This document shows, piece after piece, positions 32,580-39,457 of a DNA stretch of 43,558 nt. Made by a program: the position numbers and the translations under genes. Each line of letters begins with the position of its first letter. Position 1 is the first letter of the stretch. This DNA is from Desulfonatronovibrio sp. GTDB taxonomy: Bacteria > Desulfobacterota > Desulfovibrionia > Desulfovibrionales > Desulfonatronovibrionaceae. The stretch is taken from NCBI GenBank assembly GCA_003557865.1, contig PWNK01000037.1, forward strand, positions 1-43,558, read 5' to 3'. The notes under the pieces were generated by a model. It was not told the DNA's origin. It was given only the letters and a program-made list of their open reading frames with translations, and did not search any database.

Positions 32580-33156
32580 CTTGTCCCCCTTGGTTGTGTT
32601 GGCAGTGATGAAAAGCTTTGTATTATTAACATAAGACCAAAAAAACGTAAATCAATATCTTGGTCTGAACAAAAATGAGCATTAAAGGTTATGATAATAT
32701 ATGAAAACTCGGCTGACTGCCTGATGTTTTCCTTCCGGCATTATTCCGAGGGGAGTTTTAAGGACCTTGGCTGACTGGTTAGGGCAACTTTGGCGACTTT
32801 TATGAGGATAAACATTGGTCTTTGATGCGAACTGAAAATACAATTTTGTAACAGGTGTCATGTATCCCTGAATTATGCTGCCCTGGATCAGGTCTTTGAC
32901 CTCGAAGGAGCATCATGGGCAAAATATATCTTGAAAATTATGGACGGGGCAGGTGACAGGTCTTATGTACTGATGTGGAAAGTAAACCCTTGATCAGGCG
33001 TGGTTTGTGCAGGTGTTTGCAGATACCCTGGCCTGGATGCACTTCCCGCAGAGCAAAGTGATTATCAGGGCACTGATAAGAATGATTTCATCCATGTTAA
33101 CTGCAAATATCCGGATGAGGCGGGCTGCTAAAAACCCGCTTTTAAAGAAAGGTATA
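32580..33156. other. 577-bp intergenic region between divergent CBS-ACT gene and moxR
   Basis: No convincing gene was found. A 13-codon ORF (32915-32956, MGKIYLENYGRGR) has a good GAAGGAG site but no recognised relatives. A 27-codon ORF begins at 32690. The moxR frame is open back to about 32985, but the extra residues look non-coding. Just before moxR, a short hairpin (33120-33124 and 33135-33139, GCGGG/CCCGC) is followed by TTTT and could attenuate transcription into moxR. The promoters of both divergent genes should lie in this stretch; none stands out. Confidence 0.4.
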
Positions 33157-34056
33157 ATGAGCAAACAATCGAATCTGATTCAAACCATACTTGAAACCTT
33201 AAGCAGTGTCCTTCTGGACAAGCCTTTGCAGATCCGTCTTTCTCTGGCTTCATTTCTGGCCGGGGGTCATCTGCTGATTGAAGATATCCCGGGAGTGGGC
33301 AAAACCACCCTGGCCCTGACCATGGCAAGGGTTCTCGGCCTTGATTTTGCCAGGATTCAGATGACCAGCGATCTATTGCCTGGAGATGTGCTGGGCGTAT
33401 CCATGTTTGATCCGAGAATTAATGAATTCCGGTTTCACCCGGGACCAATATTTCATTCCATTGTTCTGGCCGATGAGATCAACAGGTCATCACCGAGGAC
33501 ACAGTCCGCACTGCTTGAGGCCATGGCTGAAAAGCAGGTTTCAGCAGACGGGAAAACCTATCCCCTTCCGGAGAATTTCCTGGTCATTGCCACGCAGAAT
33601 CCTCTGGAGGAGCACGGTGTCAATCCCCTGCCCGACAGTCAGATGGACCGGTTCATGATGAGCATCACCCTGGGTTATCCAGGACCTGAAGCAGAAAGAG
33701 AGCTATTGACCAGGGGAGGGATGAGTCCGGATATTGAGCCGGTAGTGAGCGGTATTGACCTCTCTGATCTGCGCCGGTTGCGCCGAAGGGTGTTTCTCAG
33801 TCAGGAGATTGCGGAGATGATTATCTCCCTGACCAGTGCTACCAGGCAAAACCAGGAAGTCAGGGCCGGACTCTCTCCCAGAGGCATGCTTGCCCTTAAG
33901 GCTGCAGCCCAGGCCTGGGCCATGATGGAGCAAAGGGATTATGTCATTCCCGAAGATCTGATCAAAATTGCCTACAACGTAATGGTGCACAGGATCAGTT
34001 TTGTCTCTGGAAACAGAGAATACCTCTTGAGAAGAATTATCGATGAAACCTGGTGA
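33157..34056 (+). CDS. MoxR-family AAA+ ATPase
   Basis: A 299-residue MoxR-type AAA+ chaperone-like ATPase, thought to remodel or activate partners encoded nearby. The start is placed at the ATG 33157 (MSKQSNLIQTIL) after AAAGG; the open frame further upstream lacks family similarity. Walker A is EDIPGVGKTTLA, Walker B IVLADEINRSSPRTQSALLEAM. The motifs ATQNPLEEHGVNPLPDSQMDRFM and LSPRGMLALKAAAQAWA mark the MoxR family. It overlaps the DUF58 gene by 14 bp, and the moxR-DUF58-tgpA order is widely conserved. Confidence 0.95.
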   Translation: MSKQSNLIQTILETLSSVLLDKPLQIRLSLASFLAGGHLLIEDIPGVGKTTLALTMARVLGLDFARIQMTSDLLPGDVLGVSMFDPRINEFRFHPGPIFHSIVLADEINRSSPRTQSALLEAMAEKQVSADGKTYPLPENFLVIATQNPLEEHGVNPLPDSQMDRFMMSITLGYPGPEAERELLTRGGMSPDIEPVVSGIDLSDLRRLRRRVFLSQEIAEMIISLTSATRQNQEVRAGLSPRGMLALKAAAQAWAMMEQRDYVIPEDLIKIAYNVMVHRISFVSGNREYLLRRIIDETW

Positions 34057-34978
34057 AACCGCAAAGCCTGAAAAAATACGGGCCAGACTCAGTTTTTCAG
34101 GATGGATTTATGTTCTGCTGTGCCTGCTTGTGGGACTGGCTGCAGTCAACAGCAACAATAATGTCCTTTTTCTGATCACATCGCTGCTTCTCAGCCTTCT
34201 TTTTCTCTCAGGGCTGGCAGCCATATACAATATTTCAGGAATCAGGGTTCTGGCATGGGGGCAAAGCGTCCTGACCAGGGGTCAGTCCGGACCTGTAGTG
34301 GTCAGAGTGGAAAACAGCAAGCGCTTGTCTTCTCTGGTGATCAACGTCAGATTGGGAGACGGCTTTGTTTCGATCCCTGTAATTCCTCCAGGTAGTCACA
34401 GGGAAGTCTTTTTGGTCTGGGTCCCCCCCCGGAGAGGGAGACCGTATCTGCCCCGGATCAGCGTAAGTTCCTCTTTTCCCTTCGGTTTCGTCAGACGGGG
34501 CGGCCTTTTTGATGCACAGGCCAGGATTCTGGTTTCACCGGACCCTTACGGGGTCATTGCCGATCATGCTTCCATGGGAAAGGAAGAAGATGCCTTCAGT
34601 CATTCCAGTGGCCGGGGCAGAGGAGAGTGGACAGGAATCAGGCCCTATCGTCCTGGGGAAGGAAAGGCAAATATCGTCTGGCGGCGACTGGACTGGCAAA
34701 AACGCGAAATGGGAGGGGCCGGCGGGCAGTGGCCTGCCCACAGTTTTGCCAGGCAAAACTCAAAGCCCGTTGTTCTGGACTGGGATGATCCAGCGTTTGC
34801 CCACCTTGATGTTGAAAAAAGGCTGTCCGCAATAAGACTGATCCTGGACAGGGCCGCACTCGGCAATGCCGCTTGGGAACTGAAGGTCCCCAACAGAGTT
34901 GTCTCAGGCATGGGCAAAGTGAGTTATGAAAGTGCCCTGATGGCCCTGGCTCTTGTAGAACCCCTGCCCCATCCCTGA
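34043..34978 (+). CDS. DUF58 domain membrane protein
   Basis: A 311-residue protein with two adjacent N-terminal membrane segments (about 18-40 and 44-66). A long soluble region contains the DUF58 signature GEWTGIRPYRPGEGKANIVWRRLDW (about 195-220), the REYxPGDxxxxIxW-type motif of the family, distantly related to von Willebrand A folds. DUF58 proteins co-occur with MoxR ATPases and TgpA-like transglutaminases; the biochemical role is unknown. It overlaps the end of moxR by 14 bp, and tgpA follows 70 bp later. Confidence 0.92.
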   Translation: MKPGETAKPEKIRARLSFSGWIYVLLCLLVGLAAVNSNNNVLFLITSLLLSLLFLSGLAAIYNISGIRVLAWGQSVLTRGQSGPVVVRVENSKRLSSLVINVRLGDGFVSIPVIPPGSHREVFLVWVPPRRGRPYLPRISVSSSFPFGFVRRGGLFDAQARILVSPDPYGVIADHASMGKEEDAFSHSSGRGRGEWTGIRPYRPGEGKANIVWRRLDWQKREMGGAGGQWPAHSFARQNSKPVVLDWDDPAFAHLDVEKRLSAIRLILDRAALGNAAWELKVPNRVVSGMGKVSYESALMALALVEPLPHP

Positions 34979-35048
34979 GCATACAGTATTTGGGCAGCTA
35001 TCCCTGACAGAACCTTTGACCCCATTCTGAAACAGGCATATTTTTGCA

Positions 35049-37127
35049 ATGAATGCTTCAGCAATATCCAGAAACAATTTTCGACTCAGGTTTCTTTCTC
35101 CATCAGTGGCAATAGGCGCCGGATCATGCGTAGTGTTTTCTCTGGAGATCATGCTGGCGGAGTGGGTGGCCCTGTTCTGGATTTTTTCATGCCTGGCAGT
35201 GCTTTGGGCGACATACCGGAGAAGCAACGAGTTTTTTTCATATAATTTCAGACTGATATCCACTTTGCTTTTGATCAGCCTGGCCATTGCCGCCCATTGG
35301 GCTCAGGGATGGCAGTATGTACTGGCTCAGGCCCTGGTGCTTATGCTGGGCATCAAGCTGCTGGAGCTGAGAACCCAGCGGGACTGTTTTCAGTTCTGCG
35401 GTCTGGGAGTTCTCGGGCTTGGAGTTTCCTCGCTGGTCAGATTTGATTTAGGTTTTGGGGTCATGATCTTTTTGTTCTTTTTTCTGGGGCTGGTTCTGAC
35501 CTTATGGCAGCATATCGTTGACCAGACCGGAACGAATCCGGAATCAAGGAATGCTGGATGGTTTTTTCCCCTGAAAATTATGACTTTTGCCCTGTTCCTG
35601 ACAGTGATGACCATCGTCCTGGGACTCTTTCTTTTTTTTGTTTTTCCCAGAAACATCAACCCCATGCTGAACCTGAGTTCAGGAATGAATATCCACAGGA
35701 CAGGATTCAGCCCGCAGATGAGGCCTGGAAGCGTTGGCGAGATAGTATTGTCCGGCAGAGTGGCCTTCAGGGCCACGATTGACGGTGATGCCGATCCTTC
35801 CATGCTTTACTGGCGGGGAGCAGTATTGTGGGAAACAGACGGAACCTCCTGGAAGCCGGGAAGCCCCAACGACCACAGGGTCCGTCCCGCCATTGCCTCA
35901 GGGAATGAGTCTGGAGTTATAAGTCAGAACATAACTCTAAATCCGGGCCGGACAGAGTATCTGTTCGGGCTTTTTTTCCCGGGCATGGTTCAGAATTATT
36001 CCCCTGTGTACTACAGCAGGGACGCAACGATTATAACCAGGGATCCGGTTGATATCGCCATCAGGTATCAGGTCTATTCCAGGCGAAGCGACAAAACAGA
36101 GCTGACGCCTCAGGAATTGAGGGCCGCACTTGATGTTCCCTCCGCTCTGGATCCCGGGGTTATAAGCCTGGCCCGGGAGTTTGAGGATGTACATGATCCA
36201 TGGAACAGGGCTCAGGAGGTGTTGAAATATTTTGGAACCAGTGGATTTGAATACAGCCTGGTTTCTCCTGGAGGTTCCGGACAGGGACAGACCCTGGCCA
36301 GTTTTCTGCTGGAAACCAGAACTGGATATTGTGAGCTTTATGCTGCAGCCACTGCAGTCCTGCTGAGGCTGAACAACATCCCGTCCAGGATTGTTGTGGG
36401 GTTTATGGGAGGCGAGTTCAATCCTGTTGGCGAGTACTGGGTAGTCAGGGACAGCATGGCCCATGCCTGGGTAGAGGCATGGTTTGAAGACAGGGGATGG
36501 GTACTTCTTGATCCCACCGCAATGCTGGACGGTTCCGCAGTTGATCAGGCAGAGCAGGCATGGCCATCCCCGGCGTCCGGGGAGATTATTCCGGAACAAT
36601 TGATGAGCCCCGGTTTAAGGGTTGTGGACTGGATGCGCTGGCAATGGACCAACGCGATCATTGATCTGACTCCTGCCAGACAGATGCGTATGTGGAGGTC
36701 CTTAAGGTCAGGCTTCCAGGAGACCTGGACTGGCCTGTCGGCCCCAAGGGCCAATGTTTCAAGAAACTTTCCTGAGGGCTTCAGCTTGTCACCGGTTTTG
36801 GGGGCATTGATAATTGGAGCAGGCTTTATTATTGTACTGTGGGCATTAAAGGGCAGGTATTCCGGCATGGACCGCGATCAGATACTGAGAATCAGAGCCT
36901 GGAAAAGGCTTTCCCGAAAGACCCCGGGCAGGCACGAGCTATTGACCCCTGGAAGAGAAAGGTCCATCCTTGACTGGTGGGAAAGAAATCATCCTGACAA
37001 AGCCTTGGAGCTGAAAATAATATACCATGCCCAAAGATATGGCCCCAGTCCTGATCTGGAAAAAGACAAGAAGCTTAAAAGCCTTCTCTCCGGAATGTAC
37101 ACGAGAGCACTGCCTGTGAATGATTAG
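35049..37127 (+). CDS. TgpA-like membrane transglutaminase (DUF3488/transglutaminase core)
   Basis: A 692-residue protein. The N-terminal region (about 1-190) has several membrane segments of the DUF3488/TgpA type. A periplasmic transglutaminase/protease-like domain follows, with catalytic triad Cys428 (RTGYCELYAAAT), His472 (DSMAHAWVEAWF) and Asp488 (WVLLDPTA). A further membrane segment lies near 575-597 and a cytoplasmic C-terminal tail follows. In Pseudomonas aeruginosa the homologue TgpA is essential. The substrate is unknown; cell-wall or surface-protein cross-linking or cleavage is inferred. It belongs to the moxR-DUF58 operon; M23 peptidase follows 26 bp after the stop. Confidence 0.93.
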   Translation: MNASAISRNNFRLRFLSPSVAIGAGSCVVFSLEIMLAEWVALFWIFSCLAVLWATYRRSNEFFSYNFRLISTLLLISLAIAAHWAQGWQYVLAQALVLMLGIKLLELRTQRDCFQFCGLGVLGLGVSSLVRFDLGFGVMIFLFFFLGLVLTLWQHIVDQTGTNPESRNAGWFFPLKIMTFALFLTVMTIVLGLFLFFVFPRNINPMLNLSSGMNIHRTGFSPQMRPGSVGEIVLSGRVAFRATIDGDADPSMLYWRGAVLWETDGTSWKPGSPNDHRVRPAIASGNESGVISQNITLNPGRTEYLFGLFFPGMVQNYSPVYYSRDATIITRDPVDIAIRYQVYSRRSDKTELTPQELRAALDVPSALDPGVISLAREFEDVHDPWNRAQEVLKYFGTSGFEYSLVSPGGSGQGQTLASFLLETRTGYCELYAAATAVLLRLNNIPSRIVVGFMGGEFNPVGEYWVVRDSMAHAWVEAWFEDRGWVLLDPTAMLDGSAVDQAEQAWPSPASGEIIPEQLMSPGLRVVDWMRWQWTNAIIDLTPARQMRMWRSLRSGFQETWTGLSAPRANVSRNFPEGFSLSPVLGALIIGAGFIIVLWALKGRYSGMDRDQILRIRAWKRLSRKTPGRHELLTPGRERSILDWWERNHPDKALELKIIYHAQRYGPSPDLEKDKKLKSLLSGMYTRALPVND

Positions 37128-37153: not shown

Positions 37154-37990
37154 ATGAAGAAACTTTTAGTTGTTTTAGTGATTATGTTTTTCTGGGCTAT
37201 AAGCGCCCATGCCCTGACTGTTTCCTTTCCGGAGGAGGTCGGACAGGGAGAGCCTTTCTGGTTGGAGATAGTTTCAGAAAAGCAGCCTGCTGGGGTTACT
37301 GTCATCTGGATGGGAAAAGAAGTTGATTATCCTGTGGATCTTCCCGGCACACAGAGGATTCTGCTCGGAGCCGGTCTTGATCAGAAAGGCAGCTTTCCCC
37401 TTGCCATTTCCTTTGATTTGCCTCAAGGCCCCTTGAGCAAGCACTTTCAAGTATCCATTGTGGAAAAACAGTATCCAATACAGCACCTAACTCTTCCAGA
37501 TTCAATGGTCACTCCGCCTCAGGAGGTGATTGACAGAATAGTGCGTGAGCGCGAAAAAACTGTGGCCGCCCTCAATGTCCTGAGCAGGCACCGTTATTTC
37601 TCAGAAGAGTTTCTTCGTCCCGTGCCAGGCAGTGTCAGTTCCCCCTTCGGGGTACGCAGGTTTTTGAACAACCAGCCAAGATCCCCTCACCGGGGAGTGG
37701 ATCTGAGAGGGGCTGAAGGAACCCCGGTGCAAGCCGTCAGCAGCGGCAGGGTTATTCTGACCGGAGACTTTTACTATGGAGGACAGACGGTTATTGTGGA
37801 TCATGGCCTTGGACTGCAGACGGTATATATGCATTTGAGTGATAAAAAGGTCAGCGAAGGCCAGCTTGTCCATAAAGGGGATCTTGTGGGTCTGGTGGGA
37901 ATGACCGGAAGGGCGACCGGACCTCATCTGCATCTTGGGGTTTATATCCTGGGGGAGGCGGTTGACCCCATGTTTTTGTTCAGTGATTAG
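37154..37990 (+). CDS. Secreted M23 (LytM-type) metallopeptidase
   Basis: A 278-residue protein with a signal peptide (hydrophobic 4-17, cleavage probably after AHA, residue 20). An Ig-like N-terminal region (about 21-105) follows, then a linker helix and the M23 domain (about 160-278). Zinc ligands are visible as H179 and D183 (SPHRGVDLRG) and H258/H260 (GPHLHLGV), so it looks catalytically intact. The expected role is periplasmic cleavage of peptidoglycan cross-bridges or stem peptides. AAGGAG lies 11 bases before the ATG. It is probably co-transcribed with the transglutaminase gene, a link suggesting a shared envelope process. Confidence 0.95.
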   Translation: MKKLLVVLVIMFFWAISAHALTVSFPEEVGQGEPFWLEIVSEKQPAGVTVIWMGKEVDYPVDLPGTQRILLGAGLDQKGSFPLAISFDLPQGPLSKHFQVSIVEKQYPIQHLTLPDSMVTPPQEVIDRIVREREKTVAALNVLSRHRYFSEEFLRPVPGSVSSPFGVRRFLNNQPRSPHRGVDLRGAEGTPVQAVSSGRVILTGDFYYGGQTVIVDHGLGLQTVYMHLSDKKVSEGQLVHKGDLVGLVGMTGRATGPHLHLGVYILGEAVDPMFLFSD

Positions 37991-38064: not shown

Positions 38065-38448
38065 TTAATCATCCACAAGCCGTTCCAGGATCAGGCCGAA
38101 AAACATTGACTTATCCCGGGGCTGGTAGCTCCATCCCAGCTGGAAGTGACAGTTTGAGCAGATCAGGGTCTGCCAGGAGCAGCCCGGAAACCAGGTGAAT
38201 TCAGAGGTGACGGGGCCAATCCCGGACAGGTTCTCTGCCTGGCAAAAGCATCCCACTTCAAAGACCAGGCCAGCAGGGTTGACAAAAACGTGTCTGTGGC
38301 TGCCGTTAATCTCAACCGAGGCCTCCTTCCAGGTGATTTTTATCCTGCAGGTTGAACAGAGAAGGGCTTTTCTGGGGAGGATGGTCCTGGGTTCATCTCT
38401 GGTTTGGGCTTCGAAAACACGCCCTGGATGAAGTTCTTGTCTGTACAT
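38065..38448 (-). CDS. Bacterial cereblon-like CULT-domain protein
   Basis: A 127-residue protein that is almost entirely one CULT domain, the fold that binds thalidomide-type ligands in eukaryotic cereblon and is known in some stand-alone bacterial proteins. Zinc ligands are C31-X2-C34 and C97-X2-C100. The three cage tryptophans are W86, W92 and W106, spaced 6 and 14 apart exactly as human W380/W386/W400. The flanking words FTWFPGCSW and LGWSY match human SWFPGYAW and IGWKF, and GSHRHVFVNPAGLVFEVGCF is typical of the bacterial group. No signal peptide is seen. One cage-loop Tyr is replaced by Cys90. It is a single gene, convergent with the M23 peptidase. The biological ligand is unknown; C-terminal cyclic imides and related compounds bind homologues. 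The minus-strand TTGACA at 38564-38569 is a possible -35. Confidence 0.9.
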   Translation of the reverse strand: MYRQELHPGRVFEAQTRDEPRTILPRKALLCSTCRIKITWKEASVEINGSHRHVFVNPAGLVFEVGCFCQAENLSGIGPVTSEFTWFPGCSWQTLICSNCHFQLGWSYQPRDKSMFFGLILERLVDD

Positions 38449-38659
38449 GGATTATTTTTGCCGACCAACTCCAGCTGGCGGCTCTTTAGATTTTTGGACC
38501 CGAGTAAGGGGACATGAATCTGCAACGTTGATAATTACGATAAATGTTAGCTTTTGCATAACTTGTCAAGGAGCTGGGCCGGGTTCTTTCAGCCTGCCAT
38601 CTACCTTTAGCTGTTAGAGAATAAACCGCCAAACCTTAAATTTTCAGGAAAGTGAGATC

Positions 38660-39457
38660 ATGAACGAAACAACTGTCCCTGGCATTATAAGTGCAAAACA
38701 TATCCGAAAACTGGTCATGGTTACCGCATATGATTACTCCATGGCCAGGCTGGTGGACCAGTGCGATATTGATATGGTGCTGGTGGGAGATTCCCTGGCC
38801 ATGGTTTCTTTGGGACATGAGGATACTCTTTCGGTGGGGATGAAGGAAATGCTTCACCATACCGGAGCTGTCAGCCGCGGTGTCCAAAAGGCCCTGGTTG
38901 TGGCGGATATGCCTTTCATGTCTTATCAGACCGGTGTTTCCAGGGCGGTATTCAACGCGGGCAGGTTTCTCAAGGAAGCTCGGGCCGGAGCGGTCAAGGT
39001 TGAGGGAGCTGCGGGAGTAACTCCCCAGATTAAAGCCATGGTTGAAGCCGGCATCCCGGTCATGGGTCATCTGGGGCTGACGCCCCAGAGTATTGCCGTG
39101 TTCGGGGGGTTCAAGGTCCAGGGTCGGGGAAAGTCAGGACCTCTGATTCTCTCCCAGGCCAGACAGCTTGAACAGGCGGGGTGTTTCAGTCTTGTGCTTG
39201 AGGCAGTGCCTGTGGAGCTTGCCCGCCAGATCACGGAAAGCGTCAGTATTCCGACCATTGGTATCGGCGCAGGACCGCATTGTGACGGACAGGTTCTGGT
39301 GGTCAATGACCTGCTGGGCATAAACGAGCAGTTTGCTCCCAGATTTGTCAAAAGATATGCCGACCTGTCAGCAACAGTCAGAAATGCTGTTTCAGACTAC
39401 AGCCGGGAAGTCAGGTCTGGTCAGTTTCCCGGACCTGAACACTGTTATAAGGATTAG
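38660..39457 (+). CDS. panB: 3-methyl-2-oxobutanoate hydroxymethyltransferase
   Basis: Makes ketopantoate from 2-oxoisovalerate and methylenetetrahydrofolate, the first committed step to pantothenate and CoA. The 265-residue product carries MVTAYDYSMARL and the metal-binding VLVGDSLAMV. It also has ADMPFMSYQ, VKVEGAAGVTPQIKAMVEAGIPVMGHLGLTPQS, and IGIGAGPHCDGQVLVVNDLLG, all diagnostic. Upstream is a 211-bp divergent region shared with the CULT gene. No panC or panD is nearby. dtd follows 29 bp downstream. Confidence 0.97.
   Translation: MNETTVPGIISAKHIRKLVMVTAYDYSMARLVDQCDIDMVLVGDSLAMVSLGHEDTLSVGMKEMLHHTGAVSRGVQKALVVADMPFMSYQTGVSRAVFNAGRFLKEARAGAVKVEGAAGVTPQIKAMVEAGIPVMGHLGLTPQSIAVFGGFKVQGRGKSGPLILSQARQLEQAGCFSLVLEAVPVELARQITESVSIPTIGIGAGPHCDGQVLVVNDLLGINEQFAPRFVKRYADLSATVRNAVSDYSREVRSGQFPGPEHCYKD

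Follow-up and report, generated by a model that had tools for sequence, protein, structure and literature searches.

A stand-alone CULT-domain protein of Desulfonatronovibrio with a conserved tryptophan cage, and a LonC-like protease clustered with distant relatives

Human cereblon reads C-terminal cyclic imides through its CULT domain, according to passages in PMC11974815 and PMC12117711 that cite Ichikawa 2022 and Heim 2022. Such imides arise by chain breakage or through the action of PCMT1, a homologue of PIMT (PMC11974815). Stand-alone bacterial CULT proteins, mainly deltaproteobacterial and including one from Desulfonatronospira, were published in 2015 (PMC4287342), and the NPxG motif of CULT domains is described both there and in PMC4449219. 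The member used for comparison here is MsCI4 of Magnetospirillum, which also binds uridine, with an affinity comparable to that for thalidomide (PMC4449219). Hydrogen bonds between its Tyr83 and a neighbouring region stabilise the pocket, and this residue does not contact the ligand (PMC4449219), while Glu76, Phe77 and Pro51 line a channel for the part of the ligand that protrudes from the cage (PMC8900816). In the literature searched, no physiological ligand was found for any bacterial CULT member.

The gene, its fold and its putative binding pocket

The gene described here lies in a stretch of 43,558 nucleotides from Desulfonatronovibrio sp. (contig PWNK01000037.1), referred to below as the window. 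Its features, with invariance scored in a 45-row alignment of diverse relatives and residue frequencies taken from 92 CULT sequences of the window's order and a few from outside it, are:

38065..38448, minus strand: CULT-domain gene, 127 amino acids plus stop (open reading frame, PDB sequence match, model, fold search)
38347..38358, minus strand: first zinc pair CSTC (C31-C34), invariant in the 45 rows, Cys in 90/92
38269..38280, minus strand: NPxG hairpin N57-P58-A59-G60, with N57, P58 and G60 invariant in the 45 rows
38173..38202, minus strand: cage loop EFTWFPGCSW (residues 83-92) with Trp86, Cys90 and Trp92, the two Trp invariant in the 45 rows
38149..38160, minus strand: second zinc pair CSNC (C97-C100), invariant in the 45 rows, C97 in 90/92 and C100 in 91/92
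38125..38133, minus strand: Trp106 (91/92) and the cage-base Tyr108, a position that is Tyr or Phe in 84/92

The open reading frame is intact, with an ATG start followed through 127 codons to a stop; it runs on the minus strand, which the preliminary description did not specify. The start is supported by the MYR... N-terminus that the protein shares with its closest ortholog (G060, 60% identity). Between these two genes dN is 0.26 and dS 1.98 (NG86), and 67 of the 124 base differences fall at third codon positions, which argues that the gene is under purifying selection and maintained.

A phmmer search against all PDB chains placed MsCI4 at the top (E 1.8e-21 to 1e-18) with human and other vertebrate cereblons second (E about 1e-9 to 1e-10), the matches spanning residues 28-126, and gave no further significant match beyond these two groups. 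The Pfam matches were all below threshold, the best being Yippee-Mis18 with 22.7 bits against a cut-off of 26.6, and a search of NCBIfam gave no match, so automatic annotation overlooks the protein. An AlphaFold2 model built from 45 relatives has a mean pLDDT of 88.4, with 98 residues at 90 or more and values above 90 from about residue 30 onward. When the model was compared with the PDB using Foldseek, the top folds were all MsCI4, ligand-bound structures first, with an rmsd of mostly 0.9-1.5 Å over about 102 residues and a TM score (target) of about 0.9; the deoxyuridine complex 4v31 was among the closest, and human cereblon followed with a TM score (query) of about 0.75. Judged by sequence match and predicted fold, the 127-residue protein is a genuine stand-alone CULT protein with the β-tent fold. 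The preliminary description had proposed a stand-alone bacterial CULT domain with an intact cage of three tryptophans, and the phmmer matches, the model and the fold search all bear this out: the best profile match is to CULT rather than to an unrelated zinc-ribbon family, and the model fits onto ligand-bound MsCI4 at 0.9-1.3 Å. The caution of that description over function was appropriate too. The protein consists of the CULT domain alone and, with 127 residues, has no second domain; the LON domain and the DDB1-binding segment of cereblon are both absent from it.

The details proposed earlier for the pocket also agree with what we found. Both CxxC pairs are present (C31/C34 and C97/C100), the spacing of 6 and 14 between Trp86, Trp92 and Trp106 is that of W380, W386 and W400 in human cereblon, and Cys90 aligns with human Tyr384, the usual tyrosine of the cage loop. 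In the phmmer alignment the three tryptophans correspond to W79, W85 and W99 of MsCI4. From this one-to-one alignment, together with a backbone superposition at about 1.2 Å, we infer that their side chains converge on one pocket. Among the 92 sequences W92, W106 and the zinc cysteines are essentially invariant, and W86 is lost solely in a set of mostly tandem paralogs. The fourth cage residue, Phe402 in human cereblon and Tyr101 in MsCI4, was missing from the earlier list and is Y108 here; this position is Tyr in 50 and Phe in 34 of the 92 relatives. Position 90 is more variable (Y 43, H 12, F 11, G 9, T 7, C 6), so that a tyrosine in the cage loop is common but not universal and hence not defining, and Cys90, though unusual, is a normal variant inside the family range. 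Since the tyrosine at this place in MsCI4, Tyr83, supports the pocket without contacting the ligand, the cysteine may cost some stability or affinity.

On the channel side F84, N57 and P58 are invariant in the 45 diverse relatives and E83 is nearly so, with E83, F84 and P58 corresponding to Glu76, Phe77 and Pro51 of MsCI4. The conservation of these exit-channel residues hints, if weakly, at a ligand that reaches beyond the cage, for example a peptide end. Elsewhere in the domain, bacterial CULT proteins almost always have Cys followed by Phe at C67-F68 (87/92 and 88/92).

Distribution and neighbourhood

CULT is carried by 101 of the 199 genomes of the window's order, by 130/348 in the class and by 39/395 of those sampled across the phylum. 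Its presence is consistent within lineages, with tallies of 24/25 in g22, 9/9 in g21 and 0/37 in g12. In the tree the window protein falls in a clade with its own genus and family (support 98/96, 11 rows), a placement that indicates mainly vertical inheritance with losses. As about half of the genomes of the order are without CULT the function is dispensable. An origin from a mobile element was considered and rejected, as searches of phages, plasmids and viral contigs gave no CULT relative. In genus g21 two or three CULT genes stand in tandem at six loci (L062, L053, L063, L065, L092 and L108). The additional copies group in a single clade (100/100); they have lost Trp86 and the NPxG motif but retain W92, W106 and the two zinc pairs, which suggests that their ligand has changed. 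At L116 (genome G052) only the C-terminal half of the CULT domain is in frame, and this is possibly a decaying copy.

The immediate surroundings of the window gene are:

37154..37990, plus strand: M23 murein peptidase, convergent neighbour 74 bp from the CULT gene (context)
38449..38659, no strand: intergenic region of 211 bp between the divergent starts of the CULT gene and panB, without a sigma-70-like site
38660..39457, plus strand: panB, ketopantoate hydroxymethyltransferase, divergent neighbour, near CULT in 9 loci

Given the convergent M23 gene on one side and the divergent panB on the other, the CULT gene is most likely transcribed alone; no sigma-70-like promoter was found for it in the 211-bp intergenic region. 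The recurrence of panB beside CULT in 9 loci is family-level synteny. Beyond panB lie dtd and then two glycosyltransferase genes, and the nearest other identified peptidase, of the M48/HtpX type, is 37 kb away. The earlier statement that the gene is unlinked to any degradation gene thus stands for the window locus, where M23, panB and dtd lie beside it, but not for the family, since in one distant clade the CULT genes are tied to a Lon-like protease (see below). At 33007-37127 of the window one run of genes, in an arrangement common in bacteria, encodes a MoxR-type AAA ATPase, a conserved 311-residue protein that matches no Pfam family, and a TgpA-type membrane transglutaminase.

The neighbours were then surveyed at 57 CULT loci, roughly one per genus, with simple gene calling by which some genes are missed or misplaced. 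The flanking gene lies on the same strand downstream in 31/57 and upstream in 27/56 loci, which is near random, and a same-strand neighbour within 60 bp occurs 6 times upstream and 10 times downstream in the 57 loci. No Pfam family appears more than three times among the 105 nearest neighbours, and those neighbours that do recur are specific to lineages, as panB is in the window's family. A conserved operon partner for the clade of the window protein was therefore rejected. Domain fusions were rejected as well, because the long frames at some of the hits, which reach 831 codons, are over-extended frames in high-GC genomes, in which inspection found no recognisable N-terminal domain. CULT is accordingly widespread in the order and not mobile, it mostly lacks an operon partner, and the neighbourhood of the window's clade offers no genetic clue to function.

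A divergent CULT clade and a LonC-like protease

A lead came from outside the window's clade, after 156 neighbour families had been scanned in genomes many of which are fragmented. Two LonB/LonC-like proteases appeared in the scan and both adjoin divergent CULT genes. These genes belong to a clade with an N-terminal SGNG/GGNG motif and, in most members, a histidine at the position of human His378, well separated in the tree from the window protein. In L177, L178 and the SGNG/GGNG clade this position is mostly His and FWGIL occurs near the C-terminus.

All genomes examined for the divergent clade (8/8) also encode a dedicated LonC-like protease. In the order of G476 the divergent CULT is found in 6/85 genomes and a LonC-like paralog at least 65% identical to L180:6424-8907 in 11/85, including all six CULT carriers; an overlap of 6 in 85 genomes gives a hypergeometric probability of 1.1e-6, uncorrected for phylogeny. 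Five of the 85 genomes have the protease paralog and no detected CULT, and a paralog at 38-49% is general in this order. In 5/6 of the CULT carriers of this order the CULT, LonC-like and BFN-domain genes form a same-strand cluster, in two gene orders:

L180:5917-9391, L176:5902-9739 and L206:3414-6712: cluster in the order CULT, LonC-like, BFN
L204:4929-8408 and L205:1918-5569, minus strand: cluster in the order LonC-like, BFN, CULT

The LonC-like gene, or the cluster, is closely preceded by a conserved gene for about 165 residues without a Pfam match (L176:4241-4732, L204:8490-8993, L205:5644-6135). In G479 and G722, CULT carriers from other families, a 61-67% paralog of the protease lies elsewhere in the genome.

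The clade-linked protease keeps the serine motif EGDSAS, and no Walker A motif is recognisable in it. In both respects, the catalytic Ser motif and the absent Walker A, it is like LonC, an ATP-independent protease of damaged or unfolded protein (PMC3391209). The clustering is seen in one order only, and since the adjacency is absent from the sister class (0/11 genomes with the same divergent CULT clade) it may be lineage synteny. It nevertheless provides a concrete and testable bacterial tie of cyclic-imide recognition to proteolysis, which excludes the window's own gene, and it is this cluster in remote relatives that deserves further work.

Possible functions and comparison with known systems

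By analogy with MsCI4 and human cereblon, the window protein can be expected to bind planar cyclic imides or glutarimide-like ligands in its tryptophan cage. The explanation that we favour, tentatively and at a little short of an even chance, is that it reads protein damage in the form of C-terminal cyclic imides, which are handed to proteolysis; that the ligand is a peptide end and that it is delivered to proteolysis are the less firmly suggested parts. We prefer it over the rivals in view of the CULT-LonC-like association, and the conserved cage and channel residues speak for it too. Against it stand the separation of the protease-linked clade from that of the window protein, the lack of a recurrent neighbour in the latter, the missing adjacency in the sister class, the many genomes of the order that do without CULT, and the uridine binding of MsCI4. 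In such a mechanism a small soluble cytoplasmic protein would be expressed alone, with one zinc on C31/C34 and C97/C100 joining the two halves of the β-tent. The cage of Trp86, Trp92 and Trp106, with Tyr108 as its floor, would take the planar imide ring, which F84 and W86 would hold through hydrogen bonds of their backbone; as with MsCI4, the pocket probably becomes folded around its ligand. The physiological ligand would most likely be a C-terminal aspartimide or glutarimide formed by chain breakage or cyclisation at Asn or Gln, and the CULT protein would flag damaged fragments or pass them to a housekeeping Lon-family protease. A source of the mark exists, as PIMT homologues are encoded in 199/199 genomes of the order. 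Lon is likewise present in 199/199 and LonC-like genes in 191/199; being near-universal, none of the three can be tracked by the presence or absence of CULT, and co-occurrence with PIMT or Lon was set aside as a functional clue because it has no power.

The most serious of the rivals, though rather unlikely, would be a binder of uracil, uridine or a related nucleobase, acting as a buffer or sensor of pyrimidines or their breakdown products and unrelated to protein damage. The cage of MsCI4 holds uridine and deoxyuridine as it holds thalidomide, with comparable affinity (PMC4449219), and the window protein keeps that cage and Tyr108. No pyrimidine gene recurs among the CULT neighbours, however, the authors of the uridine work found no biological context for it (PMC4449219), and in the 45-row alignment conservation reaches the channel outside the ring pocket. 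MsCI4 takes many small imides and lactams, for example valerolactam in 5ohb (PDB titles), and the patchy but lineage-consistent presence of CULT is what might be expected of an accessory metabolic trait, so that a sensor or carrier of a lineage-specific cyclic imide, lactam or hydantoin metabolite can also be envisaged. We consider this unlikely, given that genes for biosynthesis, transport or regulation do not recur nearby and that the protein carries no fused effector or DNA-binding domain.

Cys90 raises a different prospect, namely that imide binding has been lost with Tyr384 and that the protein survives as a zinc-binding module for protein interaction. The Y384A mutant of human cereblon is deficient in thalidomide binding and Tyr83 of MsCI4 stabilises the pocket by hydrogen bonds (PMC4449219); moreover CULT paralogs with a degenerate cage do exist, in the tandem arrays of one related genus. 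Those paralogs, though, lose Trp86 and NPxG instead, whereas the window protein keeps all three tryptophans, Tyr108, E83, F84 and NPxG, and position 90 varies widely (Y, H, F, G, T, C) among relatives with an invariant cage, making such a loss distinctly unlikely. Very improbable is a cage that catalyses or assists the opening of the imide ring in the repair of cyclised protein ends. It would draw on the relation of the β-tent fold to MsrB and to glutathione-dependent formaldehyde-activating enzyme (PMC4287342) and on the near invariance of C67 in bacteria (87/92), but a conserved catalytic dyad cannot be made out in the cage and thalidomide-type imides are found bound in many MsCI4 crystals (PDB titles).

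The damage-reading explanation can be widened to bacterial CULT proteins in general, which would recognise C-terminal cyclic-imide degrons and supply them to proteases of the Lon family, a quality control free of ubiquitin that would be best preserved in the CULT/LonC-like/BFN cluster. This is a doubtful proposal but a real prospect, and if it were true the logic of cereblon would predate or parallel its eukaryotic use.

Compared with what is known, the window protein is one more member of an already described family, one known as common in bacteria of the sulfate-reducing type, and the object itself is of low novelty, its use being mainly that automatic annotation overlooks it. MsCI4 (MGR_0879, 'cereblon isoform 4', from Magnetospirillum gryphiswaldense) is likewise a stand-alone bacterial CULT protein, with 35-38% identity; the two share the zinc pairs, the cage tryptophans, the cage-base tyrosine and the NPAG hairpin, and the model lies 0.9-1.3 Å from the MsCI4 crystal structures. 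They differ in Cys90, which is Tyr83 in MsCI4, in the N-terminal tail and in lineage, MsCI4 being alphaproteobacterial. From bacterial CULT group I (Lupas et al. 2015), which includes Desulfonatronospira thiodismutans WP_008870657 and has the same single-domain architecture and lineage, the window protein differs in nothing essential. Yippee and Mis18 are sister families of the β-tent fold, and their match is under the Pfam cut-off while CULT matches far better. The protein does not belong to the LonC-linked SGNG/GGNG clade, whose motif it lacks and whose neighbours it does not share. With the CULT (thalidomide-binding) domain of human cereblon it shares the fold and the cage spacing, but it has Phe84 for His378, Ala59 for His353 and Tyr108 for Phe402, and neither the LON domain nor the DDB1-binding part accompanies it; at His378 and FWGIL the SGNG/GGNG clade is closer to human cereblon than MsCI4 is.
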